DNA of 64,000 nucleotides from Alphaproteobacteria bacterium. Lineage in GTDB: Bacteria > Pseudomonadota > Alphaproteobacteria > Caulobacterales > Caulobacteraceae. A program made the translations under genes and the position numbers. Position 1 is the stretch's first letter. Each line of letters opens with the position of its first letter. The stretch is taken from assembly GCA_018820665.1 (NCBI GenBank), contig JAHJNW010000084.1:1-64000 (forward strand), read 5' to 3'. Below, in pieces: positions 30,312-43,655 of the stretch. The notes beneath the pieces were generated by a model. That model did not search any database and had not been told where the DNA came from. It saw only the letters and a list, made by a program, of their open reading frames with translations.

Positions 30312-30464
30312 GTGGCCCACCGCGCCCGCATCGCTGACCGCACCATCGCCGTTTCGGCGATCGCGGCCATGCGCGCGCCGCACGCCCTGAACGCCCTCAA
30401 CATCCTTATTCTCGCTGTATCGCTGCTCCTCCTTCCCGGAGCGGTGTGGATGCACGCAACCTGA
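30312..30464 (+). CDS. ilv operon leader peptide (attenuation control)
   Basis: A short leader of 50 codons if read from GTG 30312, which has GGAG 7 bases upstream. ATG 30279 and ATG 30369 are in-frame alternatives. Near its end the peptide reads NILILAVSLLLLPGAV: ten Leu, Ile or Val codons within sixteen. Several are codons rarely used in this GC-rich genome (CTT, ATT, GTA, CTC), which would slow ribosomes further. The stop is about 30 bases before a terminator hairpin. The control codons, alternative hairpins and position before ilvD make this a classic ribosome-mediated attenuator. It is shorter than most gene callers accept. Confidence 0.82.
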   Translation: MAHRARIADRTIAVSAIAAMRAPHALNALNILILAVSLLLLPGAVWMHAT

Positions 30465-30523
30465 ACCCAAGCCCCTTCAGGATCGCCCGCAGCCACCCGC
30501 TCCCGAAAGGAAGCGGGTTTTTT
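30438..30523 (+). promoter_or_regulatory. Alternative hairpins of the ilv attenuator
   Basis: Bases 30438-30449 (GGAGCGGTGTGG), inside the leader codons just after the Leu run, pair with 30493-30503 (CCACCCGCTCC) over 11 bp with one bulged base. This antiterminator uses the left arm of the terminator at 30496-30517, so the two structures exclude each other. A ribosome stalled on Leu/Ile codons would leave the first segment free and favour read-through into ilvD. Confidence 0.8.
30496..30523 (+). terminator. Intrinsic terminator of the ilv attenuator
   Basis: CCCGCT at 30496-30501 pairs with AGCGGG at 30512-30517, with two further C-G pairs and a GAAA loop, followed by six T residues at 30518-30523. 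It lies 41 bases upstream of the ilvD start. Confidence 0.88.
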
Positions 30524-30564
30524 GTTGCGCGCGGTCCGGACCTTACCCGGAACCCACGCCCGCC

Positions 30565-35035: not shown

Positions 35036-35302
35036 ATGACCGCTGACACCCTGCACCTGCATATCGACCGCGCCGACGGCTCGCTCCAGCGCCTGATCGG
35101 CCTGGTCGAGCGCCGCGGATTCCACATCGACGGCATGACGCTGAGCGACGAGGGCCACGGCCGCCGCGTCGAACTGGCCGTGCGCGGCCGCGACGACGGC
35201 CGCTGCCCCCACACCCTGGGCCGGCAGATCGACAAGCTGTTCGGCGTCACCCGCATCACGCCGACGTCGGCCGCCGCCTTCCAGCCCGAGGTAGCGGCAT
35301 GA
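35036..35302 (+). CDS. IlvM-like acetolactate synthase small subunit (single ACT domain)
   Basis: An 88-residue protein that begins DTLHLHIDRADGSLQRLIGLVERRGFHIDGM, an ACT domain with the pattern of the short acetolactate synthase regulatory subunit IlvM. It lacks the second domain present in the longer IlvN/IlvH subunits of about 160-180 residues. In enterobacteria the IlvGM isoenzyme with such a subunit is little inhibited by valine; whether this holds here is inference. The stop overlaps the leuA start (ATGA). Confidence 0.85.
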   Translation: MTADTLHLHIDRADGSLQRLIGLVERRGFHIDGMTLSDEGHGRRVELAVRGRDDGRCPHTLGRQIDKLFGVTRITPTSAAAFQPEVAA

Positions 35303-36525
35303 CCAAGGTTCAAACCGCCGTCGCCGCCGATCCGGACAAGGTCGTCGTCTTCGACACCACCCTGCGCGACGGGGAGCAGGCGCCCGGCTTCTCCATGGGG
35401 CCGGACGACAAGGTGCGCATGGCCCATGTGCTGGCCGCGCTGAAGGTGGATGTGGTCGAGGCCGGCTTCGCCGCCGCCTCGCCCGGCGACGAGGAAGGCG
35501 TCCGGCGCGTGGTCGGCGAGGTCGAAGGCCCGGTCTTCTGTTCGCTGGCGCGCTCGAACGAGGCCGACATCGACGCGGCGTATCGCGCCCTGCGCGGGAC
35601 GGAGGAGCGGCGCTGCCACATCTTCCTGGGCACCAGCCCGATCCACCGTTCGGCCAAGCTGAAGATGTCGAAGGCCGAGGTGCTGGCCGCCGCCGGGCGG
35701 GCCGTCGCCTATGCCCGCACCCGGTTCGAGGATGTCGAATTCAGCCCCGAGGACGCCATCCGCACCGAGCCGGAGTTCCTGGCCGAAGTATGCGAGGTCG
35801 CCGCCGCGGCGGGGGCCACGACCCTGAACATCCCCGACACCGTCGGCTATTCCACCCCGGGCGAGATCGGCGACATCTTCCGCAACCTGATCGCGACCGT
35901 CCGCGCCCGCTTCCCCCAGGTCGTCTTCTCGGCCCACTGCCACGACGACCTCGGCATGGCCGTCGCCAACTCGCTGGCGGCCGTCGAGGCCGGGGCGCGT
36001 CAGGTCGAGGGCGCGATCAACGGCATCGGCGAGCGGGCCGGCAACGCCTCGATCGAGGAGATGGTCATGGCCATCCGCACCCGCTCGGACCGTTATGGCC
36101 TGCACACCGGGGTGGACGCGACCCATCTGGTCCGCGCCAGCCGACTGCTGAGCGAGATCACTCACACCCCCGTGGTCCGCAACAAGGCCATCGTCGGCCT
36201 GAACGCCTTCGCCCACGAGGCCGGCATCCACCAGCACGGCATGATGGCCGATCCCTCGACCTATGAGATCATGCGGCCGCAGGACGTGGGCTTCGAGGGC
36301 ACCTGGTTCGTGCTGGGCAAGCATTCGGGACGCCACGCCGTTGCCAAGCGCGCCGAGACCCTCGGCCAACCCGTCAGCGGCGTGCACCTGGCCGCCGCCT
36401 TCGCCGGCTTCAAGGCCCGGGCCGACGAGATCGGCGAGATCAACGACCACGAACTGCTGGCCATCATCGAGGCCGCCCGACCCGTCACCCGTCAAGAGGA
36501 GCCCGCCTATGCGGCCGCTGGCTGA
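35299..36525 (+). CDS. leuA: 2-isopropylmalate synthase lacking the regulatory domain
   Basis: LeuA condenses 2-ketoisovalerate with acetyl-CoA, the first step toward leucine. The 408-residue protein has the DmpG/HMGL-type barrel: FDTTLRDGEQAPG with metal ligand Asp19, SAHCHDDLGMAVANSLAAVEAGARQVEG, NGIGERAGNASIEE, and the linker region HQHGMMADPSTYEIMRPQDVG and LGKHSGRHA. It ends soon after that linker; the C-terminal leucine-binding allosteric domain of about 120 residues found in typical LeuA (about 520 residues) is absent. It lies in the middle of the ilv-leu operon and overlaps ilvE by 17 bases. Homocitrate synthase is a less likely alternative, given the leuCDB genes that follow. Confidence 0.9.
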   Translation: MTKVQTAVAADPDKVVVFDTTLRDGEQAPGFSMGPDDKVRMAHVLAALKVDVVEAGFAAASPGDEEGVRRVVGEVEGPVFCSLARSNEADIDAAYRALRGTEERRCHIFLGTSPIHRSAKLKMSKAEVLAAAGRAVAYARTRFEDVEFSPEDAIRTEPEFLAEVCEVAAAAGATTLNIPDTVGYSTPGEIGDIFRNLIATVRARFPQVVFSAHCHDDLGMAVANSLAAVEAGARQVEGAINGIGERAGNASIEEMVMAIRTRSDRYGLHTGVDATHLVRASRLLSEITHTPVVRNKAIVGLNAFAHEAGIHQHGMMADPSTYEIMRPQDVGFEGTWFVLGKHSGRHAVAKRAETLGQPVSGVHLAAAFAGFKARADEIGEINDHELLAIIEAARPVTRQEEPAYAAAG

Positions 36526-39462: not shown

Positions 39463-40562
39463 TGCCCGCTCCCCGCACCTATGAGATCGTCGTCCTGCCC
39501 GGCGATGGCGTCGGCCCCGAGGTGACCCACGCGGCCCAGGCCGTGCTGACCGTGGTCGGCGATTTCTTCGGCCACAAATTTCGCTTCAGGGAGCATCTGA
39601 TCGGCGGGGCGGCGATCGATGCGACGGGCGACCCGCTGCCGCCGGAGACGGTCAGCGCCTGTCTGGCCGCGGACGCCGTGCTGCTGGGCGCGGTGGGCGG
39701 TCCCAAATGGGACGGCGGCGCGCGCCGGCCCGAGGAAGGCCTGCTGGGCCTGCGCAAGGCCATGGGCCTGTTCGCCAACCTGCGGCCGTTGCAGGTCTCG
39801 CCGGTGCTGGCCCACCGCTCGCCGCTGAAGCAGGAGATCGTCGAGGGCGTCGACCTGATCGTGTTCCGCGAGCTGACCGGCGGCATCTATTTCGGCGAGA
39901 AGACCCGCACCGCCGACCGCGCCACCGACCTGTGCGAGTACACCGTCCCCGAGATCGAACGCATCGCCCGCGCCGCCTTCAAGACCGCCCAATTGCGGCG
40001 CGGCAAGGTGACCTCGGTCGACAAGGCCAATGTGATGGAGACCAGCCGCCTGTGGCGCGAGGTGGTCACGCGCATCCACACCGAGGAATTCCCGCGCATC
40101 GAACTGGAACACGCCCTGGTCGACTCCATGGCCATGCACCTGATCCGGAAGCCGCGCGAATACGACGTCATCCTGACCGAGAACATGTTCGGCGACATCC
40201 TGTCGGACGAGATCTCGGTGCTGGGCGGCTCGATCGGCCTGCTGCCCTCGGCCTCTCTGGGCGCCGACGGCCCCGGCCTGTTCGAACCCATCCACGGCTC
40301 GGCTCCTGACATCGCAGGTCAGGACAAGGCCAATCCGGTCGGGACCATCCTGTCCGCCGCCCTGATGCTGCGACACAGCCTCGGACTGGAGGACGAGGCC
40401 GGTTCGGTCGAGGCGGCCGTGGCGGCTGTGCTGTCGGCCGGCGCCGTGACCCAGGACCTGGGCGGGACGCTGGGCACGCGCGCGGCGGCAAACGCCGTGA
40501 TCGACGGGCTGCGCGCCATCCACTGGGCCGCGGCCCACCGCATCCAGATGCACTGGGCGTAG
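39462..40562 (+). CDS. leuB: 3-isopropylmalate dehydrogenase
   Basis: LeuB oxidises and decarboxylates 3-isopropylmalate with NAD and is the last leucine-specific enzyme before transamination. The 366-residue protein has [11 protein letters not shown] at the N-terminus, the substrate arginines in [13 protein letters not shown], the Lys in [12 protein letters not shown], the Mg-binding aspartates in [16 protein letters not shown], and the NAD-binding [17 protein letters not shown]. It is the last gene of the operon. The 240 bases from its stop to the threonine leader carry no further gene and no clear terminator. Confidence 0.96.
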
Positions 40563-40662: not shown

Positions 40663-40690
40663 TTGACGCGCGCCGTTTCAGTCCGCAGCC
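40663..40690 (+). promoter_or_regulatory. Candidate promoter of the threonine operon
   Basis: TTGACGC at 40663-40669 and GCAGCC at 40685-40690, separated by 15 bases, resemble the housekeeping promoter pattern of Caulobacter biosynthetic genes (TTGACGS then GCTANAWC). The -10 match is poor. It lies upstream of the threonine leader peptide, as required for attenuation. Confidence 0.33.
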
Positions 40691-40802
40691 TGTCGTCCGA
40701 CTTCAATGTGAGCCCGGTCCCTTGAACCGTTCCGCCGCCTTCTTCCCCGTCCGTCCGACCGCCTCGCGCGGCGGTGCGGGCGTGCGCGCCAGCGGCCTCG
40801 GT

Positions 40803-40853
40803 ATGACCACCTCGATCACCACCATCACCACGCTCATGGCGGGGACAGGTTAG
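40803..40853 (+). CDS. thr operon leader peptide (attenuation control)
   Basis: ATG 40803 to TAG 40853 encodes MTTSITTITTLMAGTG: seven Thr and two Ile codons among sixteen, the pattern of thr leader peptides, which use Thr and Ile as control codons. No strong ribosome-binding site is visible; in-frame GTG 40782 and TTG 40722 could start a longer leader with the same end. It is far too short for normal gene callers. The peptide, the hairpins after it, and the homoserine-pathway genes downstream all support the call. Confidence 0.83.
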   Translation: MTTSITTITTLMAGTG

Positions 40854-40914
40854 CGCGCACCACACTCAGGATCGCTCCAACCCAACCCCGCCCGGACCCC
40901 CGGGCGGGGTTTTT
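40838..40914 (+). promoter_or_regulatory. Alternative hairpins of the thr attenuator
   Basis: GGCGGGG at 40838-40844 pairs with CCCCGCC at 40886-40892, and GGTT at 40848-40851 pairs with AACC at 40879-40882, across a 3x3 internal loop. The first segment lies in the leader codons right after the Thr run, and the second is the left arm of the terminator, so antiterminator and terminator exclude each other. Confidence 0.78.
40886..40914 (+). terminator. Intrinsic terminator of the thr attenuator
   Basis: A perfect 9-bp stem (40886-40894 with 40901-40909, CCCCGCCCG with CGGGCGGGG) and a six-base loop are followed by five T residues. It lies 43 bases before the aspartokinase-homoserine dehydrogenase start. 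Confidence 0.92.
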
Positions 40915-40957: not shown

Positions 40958-42706
40958 ATGCCCAGCCTCGCCCTCCTTCGACAGAAACCGGCGCCCGCCG
41001 CCGCCCTCCCCCTGCCCGGCGCACCCGTGGTGGTGATGAAGTTCGGCAGTTCGGTGCTGGCCAGTCCGGCCGACGCGCCCGCCGTCGCCTCCGACATCTA
41101 TGCCGAGGTCCGGCGCGGCCGCCGCGTCGTCGCCGTGGTCTCGGCCTTCGCCGGCGAGACCGACCGGCTGCTGGCCGAGGCGCGGCTGCTCGGTCTTGCG
41201 CACGACAACCCCCTGCTGCCGGCCTATGTCGTGCAGGGCGAGGAGCGGTCGGCGGCCCTGACGGCCCTGGCCTGCGACCGGATCGGGCTGGACGCTGCGA
41301 CCCTGACGGTGCGCGAGCTCGGCATCCTCGCCGAGGGGCCGTGCGAGCACGCCCGCCCCGTCGCCCTCGATCGCGCCGCGCTGGAGCGGGCGCTGGAGCG
41401 GCATGAGGTCGTGGTGGTGCCCGGCTTCGGCGCTCTCGGGCCCGACGGCCGGGCGGTGCTGCTGGGCCGGGGCGGGTCGGACCTGACCGCCCTGTTCCTC
41501 GCCGCCGAGCTGGGCCTCGACCACGTCCAGCTGGTGAAGGACGTCGACGGCCTCTACGACCGCGACCCCAACGCCGATCCCGACGCCCGCCGCTACGATC
41601 AGGCCAGCTGGGCCGAGGCCAAGGGCTTGGGCGGCGGGCTGGTGCAGCCGGACGCCCTCGACCTGGCCGAGGCGCGGCGGCTGTGCGTCGAGGTTCGCAA
41701 CCACGCCGACGGCCACCGCACCGCGATCGGGGCCGAGGGCGCGCCGCCGCGCCGCGTGCCGCCGCGTCGCCGGCTGAAGGTCGCGGTGGCCGGTTGCGGC
41801 GTCGTCGGCGGCGGGGCCCTGTCGCGGCTGCTGGGCGACGCCCGCGTCGAGGTCGTCGGCGTGCTGGTGCGCGATCCGGCCAAGGCCCGTGACATCCCCG
41901 GCTTCCCGGCGGCCGCCTTGGCGCCGCTGTTGGTGGACAATGCCGCCGCCCTGCTGGACCGCGACCCGGACATCCTGCTGGAGGCCTTGTCGGAGGCGGA
42001 GGCCGGTCACGCCGTGATCCGCGCCGCGCTGGAGCGCGGCGTCGATGTGGCCAGCGCCAACAAACAGGCGGTCAGCCGCGACCCCGCCGGCCTGCTGGCC
42101 CTCGCCGAGGTTCATGAGGCGAAACTGCTGTGGTCGGCGTCGATCGGCGGCGGCGCGCCCATGGTCGAGACCCTGCGCGCGGCCCGCGCCGACGGCCCGG
42201 TCGCGGGCTTCGAGGCGGTGCTGAACGGCACGGTCAACTTCATGCTCGAACGGCTCGGCGACGGCGCCTCGTTCGACCAGGCCCTGGCCGAGGCCCGCGC
42301 TGCCGGTTTCGCCGAGGAGGATCCCTCCTCCGACCTCGAAGGCCTCGACGCCGCCGCCAAGGTGCGCTTGCTGGCGTTCGAAGCCTTCGGCCTGATGCCG
42401 GACGAGGGGGACATCCCGCGCGACGTGCTGTCGCCGGACGCCCTCCCGCCGGCCGGCGCGCGCCAGCTGTGTCGATGCCGGCTGGACAACGGCCGGGTCG
42501 TCGCCGAGGTTCGTCTGGTCGCCGGCGCGCTCGATCCGCTGTTCGCCGCGCTGAACGGGGAGCGCAACGCCTTGAAGGTCATAGGCCCGGATGGATCGGC
42601 GGTGCGGTGCCGGGGTCGCGGCGCCGGCCGCTGGGCCACGGCCGAGAGCCTGCTGGCCGACCTCGGCGAGCTCGCCGCCCGCCGCTTCGCGCTTCAGGAC
42701 GCCTGA
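40958..42706 (+). CDS. Compact aspartokinase-homoserine dehydrogenase fusion (no ACT domains)
   Basis: A 582-residue two-domain protein resembling ThrA/MetL but shorter (ThrA is about 820). Residues about 24-255 form an aspartokinase-type domain: VVVMKFGSSVL in place of KFGGTSV, LLGRGGSDLTALFLAAELG and LVKDVDGLYDRDPNADPDARR. Residues from about 272 form homoserine dehydrogenase: VAVAGCGVVGGG, ASANKQAVS, SASIGGGAPMVETL, NGTVNFML and the EDPSSDLEGLDAAAKVRLLAF signature. The ACT-domain region that normally lies between them, and mediates threonine inhibition, is missing. The start at 40958 follows the thr attenuator; an ATG at 41036 would remove 26 residues. Both activities look plausible but the kinase motif is atypical. 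Likely role: aspartyl phosphate and homoserine formation for Thr and Met. Confidence 0.85.
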   Translation: MPSLALLRQKPAPAAALPLPGAPVVVMKFGSSVLASPADAPAVASDIYAEVRRGRRVVAVVSAFAGETDRLLAEARLLGLAHDNPLLPAYVVQGEERSAALTALACDRIGLDAATLTVRELGILAEGPCEHARPVALDRAALERALERHEVVVVPGFGALGPDGRAVLLGRGGSDLTALFLAAELGLDHVQLVKDVDGLYDRDPNADPDARRYDQASWAEAKGLGGGLVQPDALDLAEARRLCVEVRNHADGHRTAIGAEGAPPRRVPPRRRLKVAVAGCGVVGGGALSRLLGDARVEVVGVLVRDPAKARDIPGFPAAALAPLLVDNAAALLDRDPDILLEALSEAEAGHAVIRAALERGVDVASANKQAVSRDPAGLLALAEVHEAKLLWSASIGGGAPMVETLRAARADGPVAGFEAVLNGTVNFMLERLGDGASFDQALAEARAAGFAEEDPSSDLEGLDAAAKVRLLAFEAFGLMPDEGDIPRDVLSPDALPPAGARQLCRCRLDNGRVVAEVRLVAGALDPLFAALNGERNALKVIGPDGSAVRCRGRGAGRWATAESLLADLGELAARRFALQDA

Positions 42707-42707
42707 G

Positions 42708-43655
42708 ATGGCGGTGTTCACCCCCGTGGAGGAGGCCGAGGCCGAACCCTTCATTAGTCGCTTCGGCCTCGGGTCGTTGCGCGCCCTGACGCCGATCGCC
42801 GAGGGTGTGGAGAACACCAACTACCGCCTCGATACGGATCAGGGACGGTTCGTCCTGACCCTGTTCGAGGGCCGGACCGACGAGGCCGCCCTGCCCTTCT
42901 GCCTCGGGCTGACGCGCCACGCGGCGGAACGCGGCCTGCCCTGCGCCAGCGCGCTGGTCGACGCCGGCGGCGAGGCGATCGGACGGCTGAACGGCCGGCC
43001 CGCCGCCATCCTCGACTGGCTGCCGGGCGTGGCGAAGACCGAGCCGTCGCTCGACGATCAGGCGGCCGCCGGCGCCCTGCTGGCCCGCCTGCATCTGGCG
43101 GCGGCCGACTATCCGGCGGAACGGGCCAATCCCGTGGGCGCCGCCGCCCGCCGGGCGCTGTTCGAGCGGTGCGACACGCGGGCCGCGGGCGCCGACCGAC
43201 GGATCCTCGAGCGGCTGGCGCCGTGGGTGGCGGCCCACGCGCCTGACCCCGCCGCCGGCCTGCCGCGCGGCCCCATCCACGCTGACTATTTTCCGGACAA
43301 CCTGCTGTTCGAGGGTGGCGCGCCCAGCGGCCTGATCGACTTCTATTTCGCCTGCGTCGACGCCCTCGCCTACGACCTCGCCATCGCCCTGTCGGCCTGG
43401 GGGTTCGACGCCACGGGAGCCCCGCTTCCCGCCGCGCTGCACGCCTTCCAGTCGGGCTATGAAGCGGTCCGGCCGCTCAGCGCGGCCGAGCGCGCCGCCC
43501 TGCCCGAACTGGGCGCGGTCGCCGCCGTGCGCTTCACCCTGACGCGTCTGCACGACCGGCTGTTCCACGACCCGGCAGCCCTGGTCACGCCCAAGGATCC
43601 CGCGCCGTTCCTGCGTCGGCTCGACTGGTGGACCGGGGCGCCGCTGGCCGCCTGA
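42708..43655 (+). CDS. thrB: Homoserine kinase (APH-fold type)
   Basis: ThrB phosphorylates homoserine. The 315-residue protein is the phosphotransferase (APH/choline kinase) fold type found in alphaproteobacteria, not the GHMP type: AVFTPVEEAEAEPFI at the N-terminus, GVENTNYRLDTDQGRFVLTLFE, and the catalytic loop IHADYFPDNLLFEGG with the metal Asp in GLIDFYFAC. I chose ATG 42708, one base after the fusion gene stop; the upstream frame overlaps that gene. It is convergent with thrC, and their stop codons directly abut. Confidence 0.92.
   Translation: MAVFTPVEEAEAEPFISRFGLGSLRALTPIAEGVENTNYRLDTDQGRFVLTLFEGRTDEAALPFCLGLTRHAAERGLPCASALVDAGGEAIGRLNGRPAAILDWLPGVAKTEPSLDDQAAAGALLARLHLAAADYPAERANPVGAAARRALFERCDTRAAGADRRILERLAPWVAAHAPDPAAGLPRGPIHADYFPDNLLFEGGAPSGLIDFYFACVDALAYDLAIALSAWGFDATGAPLPAALHAFQSGYEAVRPLSAAERAALPELGAVAAVRFTLTRLHDRLFHDPAALVTPKDPAPFLRRLDWWTGAPLAA

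Follow-up and report, generated by a model that had tools for sequence, protein, structure and literature searches.

By its sequence features, an element on the forward strand of the analyzed stretch of DNA (64 kb, referred to here as the window) is most probably (about 0.9) a transcription attenuator of the ribosome-mediated kind, through which the level of charged threonyl-tRNA would control the thrA-thrB operon. The host genome is that of a Brevundimonas (Alphaproteobacteria). The sequence features that define this class of attenuator are found at the locus: a leader ORF enriched in the relevant codon, an intrinsic terminator, an overlapping antiterminator, and threonine-making genes downstream. 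An earlier note on this DNA had proposed a threonine attenuator, and that reading is borne out by the Thr-rich leader and the competing folds, by their conservation and covariation, and by the position of thrA-thrB. Threonine attenuation is a classical mechanism that is well known from Gammaproteobacteria. The element described here is very probably a further classical case, with a mechanism that is known and a bacterial order and enzyme for which no prior report was found.

The C-terminal part of the leader peptide (40803-40853) translates as MTTSITTITTLMAGTG and ends at the stop codon TAG (40851-40853). Its seven Thr and two Ile residues in 16 codons agree with the composition originally claimed. 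Exactly one ORF in the window, on either strand, ends with at least six Thr in 16 codons, against a chance expectation of 0.15 such ORF ends per window, on average, in second-order Markov windows. A Thr-rich ORF end combined with a 9-bp terminator occurred in 0 of 40 such simulated windows. The enrichment is also a property of related loci, including those of a second leader-bearing family of the Caulobacterales that we take to be the Maricaulaceae. All 97 leaders tested carry at least four Thr in their final 20 codons (median, seven), and Thr accounts for 37% of leader residues in Brevundimonas and 31% in the second family, as compared to 7–8% for Ile. The signal is probably threonine alone, since Ile codons are few and inconsistently present, and a dependence of the leader on isoleucine was dropped for the same reason.

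The length first proposed for the leader, 16 codons, has to be revised. A leader of about 43 codons that starts at TTG 40722 (40722-40853; (M)NRSAAFFPVRPTASRGGAGVRASGLGMTTSITTITTLMAGTG) is more likely, and translation probably begins there rather than at ATG 40803. The longer leader is favored because starts of the TTG 40722 type are locked to a conserved TTGAC motif, a probable -35 element of a putative promoter, which lies at 40663-40667 in the window and recurs in each of the 60 distinct Brevundimonas loci. An in-frame GTG, TTG or ATG occurs 55–67 nt (sd 2.1) after TTGAC in 59 of these loci, where the candidate nearest the expected spacing was taken if there were several; the remaining locus, L071, has no start codon at that spacing. 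Start-to-stop length varies from 37 to 48 codons while the start position stays fixed relative to TTGAC. In Brevundimonas loci, the first ATG close to the Thr run is more scattered in position (sd 15.5), and ATG 40803 itself is unconserved, being ACG in the close relative L032. In every locus examined the leader frame stays open over 45 codons or more; a second reading frame is open as well in 56 of 60 Brevundimonas and 30 of 38 second-family loci, and codon positions in the upstream half of the leader give no hint that its peptide is conserved. Leaders of the second family have ATG starts about 40–52 codons before the stop.

Two mutually exclusive folds can be drawn downstream of the Thr codons. 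The terminator consists of region 3 (40884-40895, 5′ arm) paired with the first part of region 4 (40900-40914, comprising the 3′ arm and a U run at 40910-40914). Its stem, 40884-40895 with 40900-40911, has 12 pairs, of which 10 are perfect G-C or C-G pairs and two are A-U, closed by the loop ACCC and followed by TTTTT, with a folding energy of -26.6 kcal/mol (z = -4.8). The hairpin and its five Ts are thus as first described, and the stem is longer than the perfect 9 bp originally given. In the antiterminator, GGCGGGG of region 2 (40838-40844) pairs with CCCCGCC (40886-40892) of region 3, a double use of region 3 that alignment A2 also supports. Additional helices within 40848-40882 are formed by GGUU (40848-40851) with AACC (40879-40882) and by GCG (40855-40857) with CGC (40873-40875), for a total of -26.3 kcal/mol (z = -3.0). 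As the earlier note held, the antiterminator begins inside the leader, with region 2 overlapping codons 12-14 of the 16, and competes for region 3. Both folds use region 3, and their energies are almost the same, as a switch predicts; extended antiterminator stems equivalent to that of the window also fold in the other loci. Most relatives also possess a GCCC-NNNC-GGGC hairpin just 3′ of the Thr codons, which is weak in this genome. A separate observation from alignment A2 is the strong conservation of a stretch that starts at the leader stop codon (40851-40858 in the window; TAGCGCGC in most Brevundimonas) and falls in the inner antiterminator, where pairing is weak.

In the proposed mechanism, RNA polymerase would start downstream of TTGAC 40663, with ribosomes translating the leader ORF behind it. 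If threonyl-tRNA is ample, the ribosome would reach the stop codon at 40851-40853 and cover region 2, leaving region 3 to pair with region 4 and terminate transcription near 40914. If it is scarce, the ribosome would be expected to stall at the early Thr codons and leave region 2 free; pairing of region 2 with region 3 would then preclude the terminator and allow transcription of thrA-thrB. Early Thr codons should matter most, since a ribosome stalled at the last ones would itself cover region 2. The GCCC-NNNC-GGGC hairpin of most relatives could shield region 2 in the absence of leader translation.

Loss of the Thr codons or of the competing pairing in close relatives, which would have counted against attenuation, was sought and found in none: every one of the 60 readable, distinct Brevundimonas loci retains the Thr run, antiterminator and terminator, as do 38 loci of the second family. 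The outer antiterminator helix is paired in 94.6% of cells across the 60 loci. This conservation bears on an alternative explanation in which the hairpin ends transcription of the upstream ilv-leu operon as an ordinary intrinsic terminator, and the adjacent Thr-rich ORF is there by chance. The gene leuB does end upstream on the same strand, at 40562, and the hairpin alone would suffice as its terminator. Such an account is extremely unlikely, given that no locus has lost the Thr run or the competing arm, that leuB and the leader are separated by a TTGAC of the leader's own, and that the element stays in front of thrA where leuB is out of reach. In fact, leuB was found ahead of the leader in only about a sixth of Brevundimonas loci, namely those of the clade to which the window belongs and of a few more; where the upstream gene is a different one, the leader is still present with thrA-thrB next. 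The closeness to an ilv attenuator that was pointed out earlier does exist in the window, but is a local, clade-specific arrangement, because the leader accompanies thrA without leuB elsewhere. That neighboring element looks like a Leu/Ile/Val attenuator, with a leader peptide, MRAPHALNALNILILAVSLLLLPGAVWMHAT, at 30369-30464 and a terminator-like hairpin at about 30495-30526, followed by ilvD.

Covariation was assessed both within and between the two families. Pair counts on the Brevundimonas alignment showed no both-side changes in the antiterminator, and are uninformative for this helix because its arms hardly vary; the terminator and the protector hairpin, in turn, pair more often than slid controls within this genus. 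A model-fitted joint alignment (A3) was too gappy for pair counts and went unused. As the arms are too invariant within Brevundimonas, an alignment-free swap test was employed, in which region 2 of each species is paired with its own region 3 or with region 3 of another species, and the arm sequences and their register do differ between the families. Cognate antiterminator duplexes averaged -31.9 kcal/mol versus -27.3 kcal/mol for swapped ones (sd 0.86), with 0 of 20000 permutations as good, and the result holds after the removal of row and column effects and of two A+T-rich sequences. The terminator likewise passes, so that the covariation of both hairpins, which had been suggested as a check, is seen across the two families at p < 5e-5; representatives were thinned by similarity and the permutations ignore the tree, which means that these and the following p values treat the sequences as more independent than they are. 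The middle antiterminator helices alone gave p = 0.015, and a control swap of the Thr-codon stretch against region 3 had no effect. By group, p was 0.15 for Brevundimonas alone and < 5e-5 for the second family; the evidence for antiterminator covariation therefore lies mostly in the second family and in between-family differences, the Brevundimonas arms being too conserved.

Two further alternatives retain the leader and change what it does. In one, stalling on the upstream ORF alters ribosome access to thrA and thereby controls its translation and not its transcription. Translation-coupled uORFs rely on the same kind of stalling, and the thrA start is only 43 nt past the U run. Nevertheless, translational control is very improbable here, as a strong hairpin and T run are conserved in all loci and covary, and the antiterminator competes with the terminator hairpin rather than with the thrA start site. 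In the other, the main product is the terminated RNA or the leader peptide, which acts in trans, with attenuation secondary. A precedent is found in the Sinorhizobium trp attenuator, whose RNA (rnTrpL) and peptide (peTrpL) have functions of their own (PMC10117765). A trans-acting role as the main one is likewise very improbable for the Brevundimonas leader: changes in the upstream half of the peptide are spread over the three codon positions without bias (192, 188 and 222), and the parts that are conserved are those that attenuation requires. Transcription attenuation is thus the reading preferred in what follows.

The first gene past the U run is thrA (40958-42706, forward strand), whose 582-aa product is a fused aspartokinase-homoserine dehydrogenase according to Pfam (AA_kinase, NAD_binding_3, Homoserine_dh) and NCBIfam models. 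Pfam detected no ACT domain in this protein, and its score against the enterobacterial-type model NF006959 (bifunctional aspartate kinase/homoserine dehydrogenase I) was 152.4 bits, far from the curated cutoff of 726. Co-linear with it is thrB (42705-43655, forward strand), a homoserine kinase gene of the PRK05231/thrB_alt type (NF003558, TIGR00938), which comes after thrA in almost every Brevundimonas locus. A threonine synthase gene lies beyond the pair on the opposite strand. With ThrA devoid of ACT domains, attenuation may be the main threonine control of the enzyme. A parallel is seen in the LeuA of the window (35299-36525; 408 aa), where only the HMGL-like and post-HMGL domains were identified and the C-terminal regulatory domain was not found; attenuators are associated with both operons.

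The leader is closely tied to thrA. A covariance model of the leader region was run against 398 genomes of the order; of the 47 Brevundimonas genomes among them, it matched all 30 that have a full-length thrA and not one of the 17 that lack it. In the second family, 37 of 38 matches lie directly before an ACT-less fused thrA, with ~40% identity and a Thr-rich leader, and a further locus (L028), outside the covariance-model matches, was found by reading. Matches in three genomes (G076, G134 and G292) were rejected as false for want of a thrA; two of these genomes belong to another Caulobacteraceae genus and one to the second family. Some related ACT-less fused thrA genes of other Caulobacterales (L024, L025, L026, L027 and L029) show no visible Thr leader, which counts against the reading. 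A class-wide draw of 289 genomes yielded no thrA homologue at E below 1e-60 outside of Brevundimonas, a stringent threshold at which more distant fusions may be missed.

Two observations on paralogues and gene loss can be added. A second homoserine dehydrogenase, whose aspartokinase part is degenerate, is encoded elsewhere in the genome that contains the window (locus L150; G000:C53:11822-13033), right after a gene for a PLP enzyme of Cys/Met metabolism; no Thr leader was seen at this Met-linked paralogue. In addition, two near-complete Brevundimonas genomes (G010 and G032) had no homoserine dehydrogenase match listed to the one query used, suggesting that the pathway was lost and that these strains may require threonine and methionine.

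In the gene tree, Brevundimonas thrA groups with the Met-linked paralogue family, apart from the thrA of the second family. Leaderless genes separate the two leader-bearing groups, such that the character of having a leader requires two changes. For this reason, two origins of the Thr attenuator are conceivable, as are its transfer and a single ancient leader that was later lost in places.

How far the element resembles known systems depends on the level of comparison. The earlier note saw in it a mirror of the enterobacterial thr attenuator, and this is apt for the mechanism. Like that of E. coli and other Gammaproteobacteria (RF00506, ThrL), it combines a Thr-rich leader ORF with an antiterminator that opposes a terminator, upstream of genes for a fused aspartokinase-homoserine dehydrogenase and a homoserine kinase. 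The likeness does not extend to the details. The window RNA scores 15.3 bits (E = 2) against the Rfam model RF00506 (Thr_leader), for which the gathering threshold is 55, and a scan of the whole 64-kb window found no Rfam family at its gathering threshold. Unlike the E. coli leader, that of the window is probably ~43 codons long with inconsistent Ile codons; ThrA is a separate, ACT-less fusion of different architecture in a different bacterial class, and thrC is outside of the operon in most loci. Within the Alphaproteobacteria, trp and branched-chain attenuators (e.g., Sinorhizobium trpL/rnTrpL) share the class and the mechanism, while the amino acid and operon differ. Another short ORF with a cluster of Thr codons is SEP5 of Sinorhizobium meliloti, a possible leader peptide in a 5′ UTR with six Thr codons (plus three Lys), upstream of a gene called aspartate dehydrogenase and conserved in Sinorhizobium only (PMC10117765). 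SEP5 is likened here by its description alone, and its downstream gene differs. The open literature searched yielded no account of a Thr attenuator in Caulobacterales, with an earlier mention in the survey of Vitreschak et al. 2004 being possible.

The finding extends classical threonine attenuation to a large and well-sampled order of Alphaproteobacteria and makes about 100 aligned examples available for an RNA family. Carriers in culture include B. diminuta and B. vesicularis, so that the prediction is testable with ordinary reporters; Maricaulis maris is presumably another. The system also offers a testable case of control shifting from the enzyme, here ACT-less, to RNA. It can be proposed, tentatively and with the odds still against it, that attenuation has replaced allosteric feedback in this lineage, as the ACT-less ThrA and the LeuA without its regulatory domain would have it, and that the Thr attenuator perhaps arose twice within the Caulobacterales.
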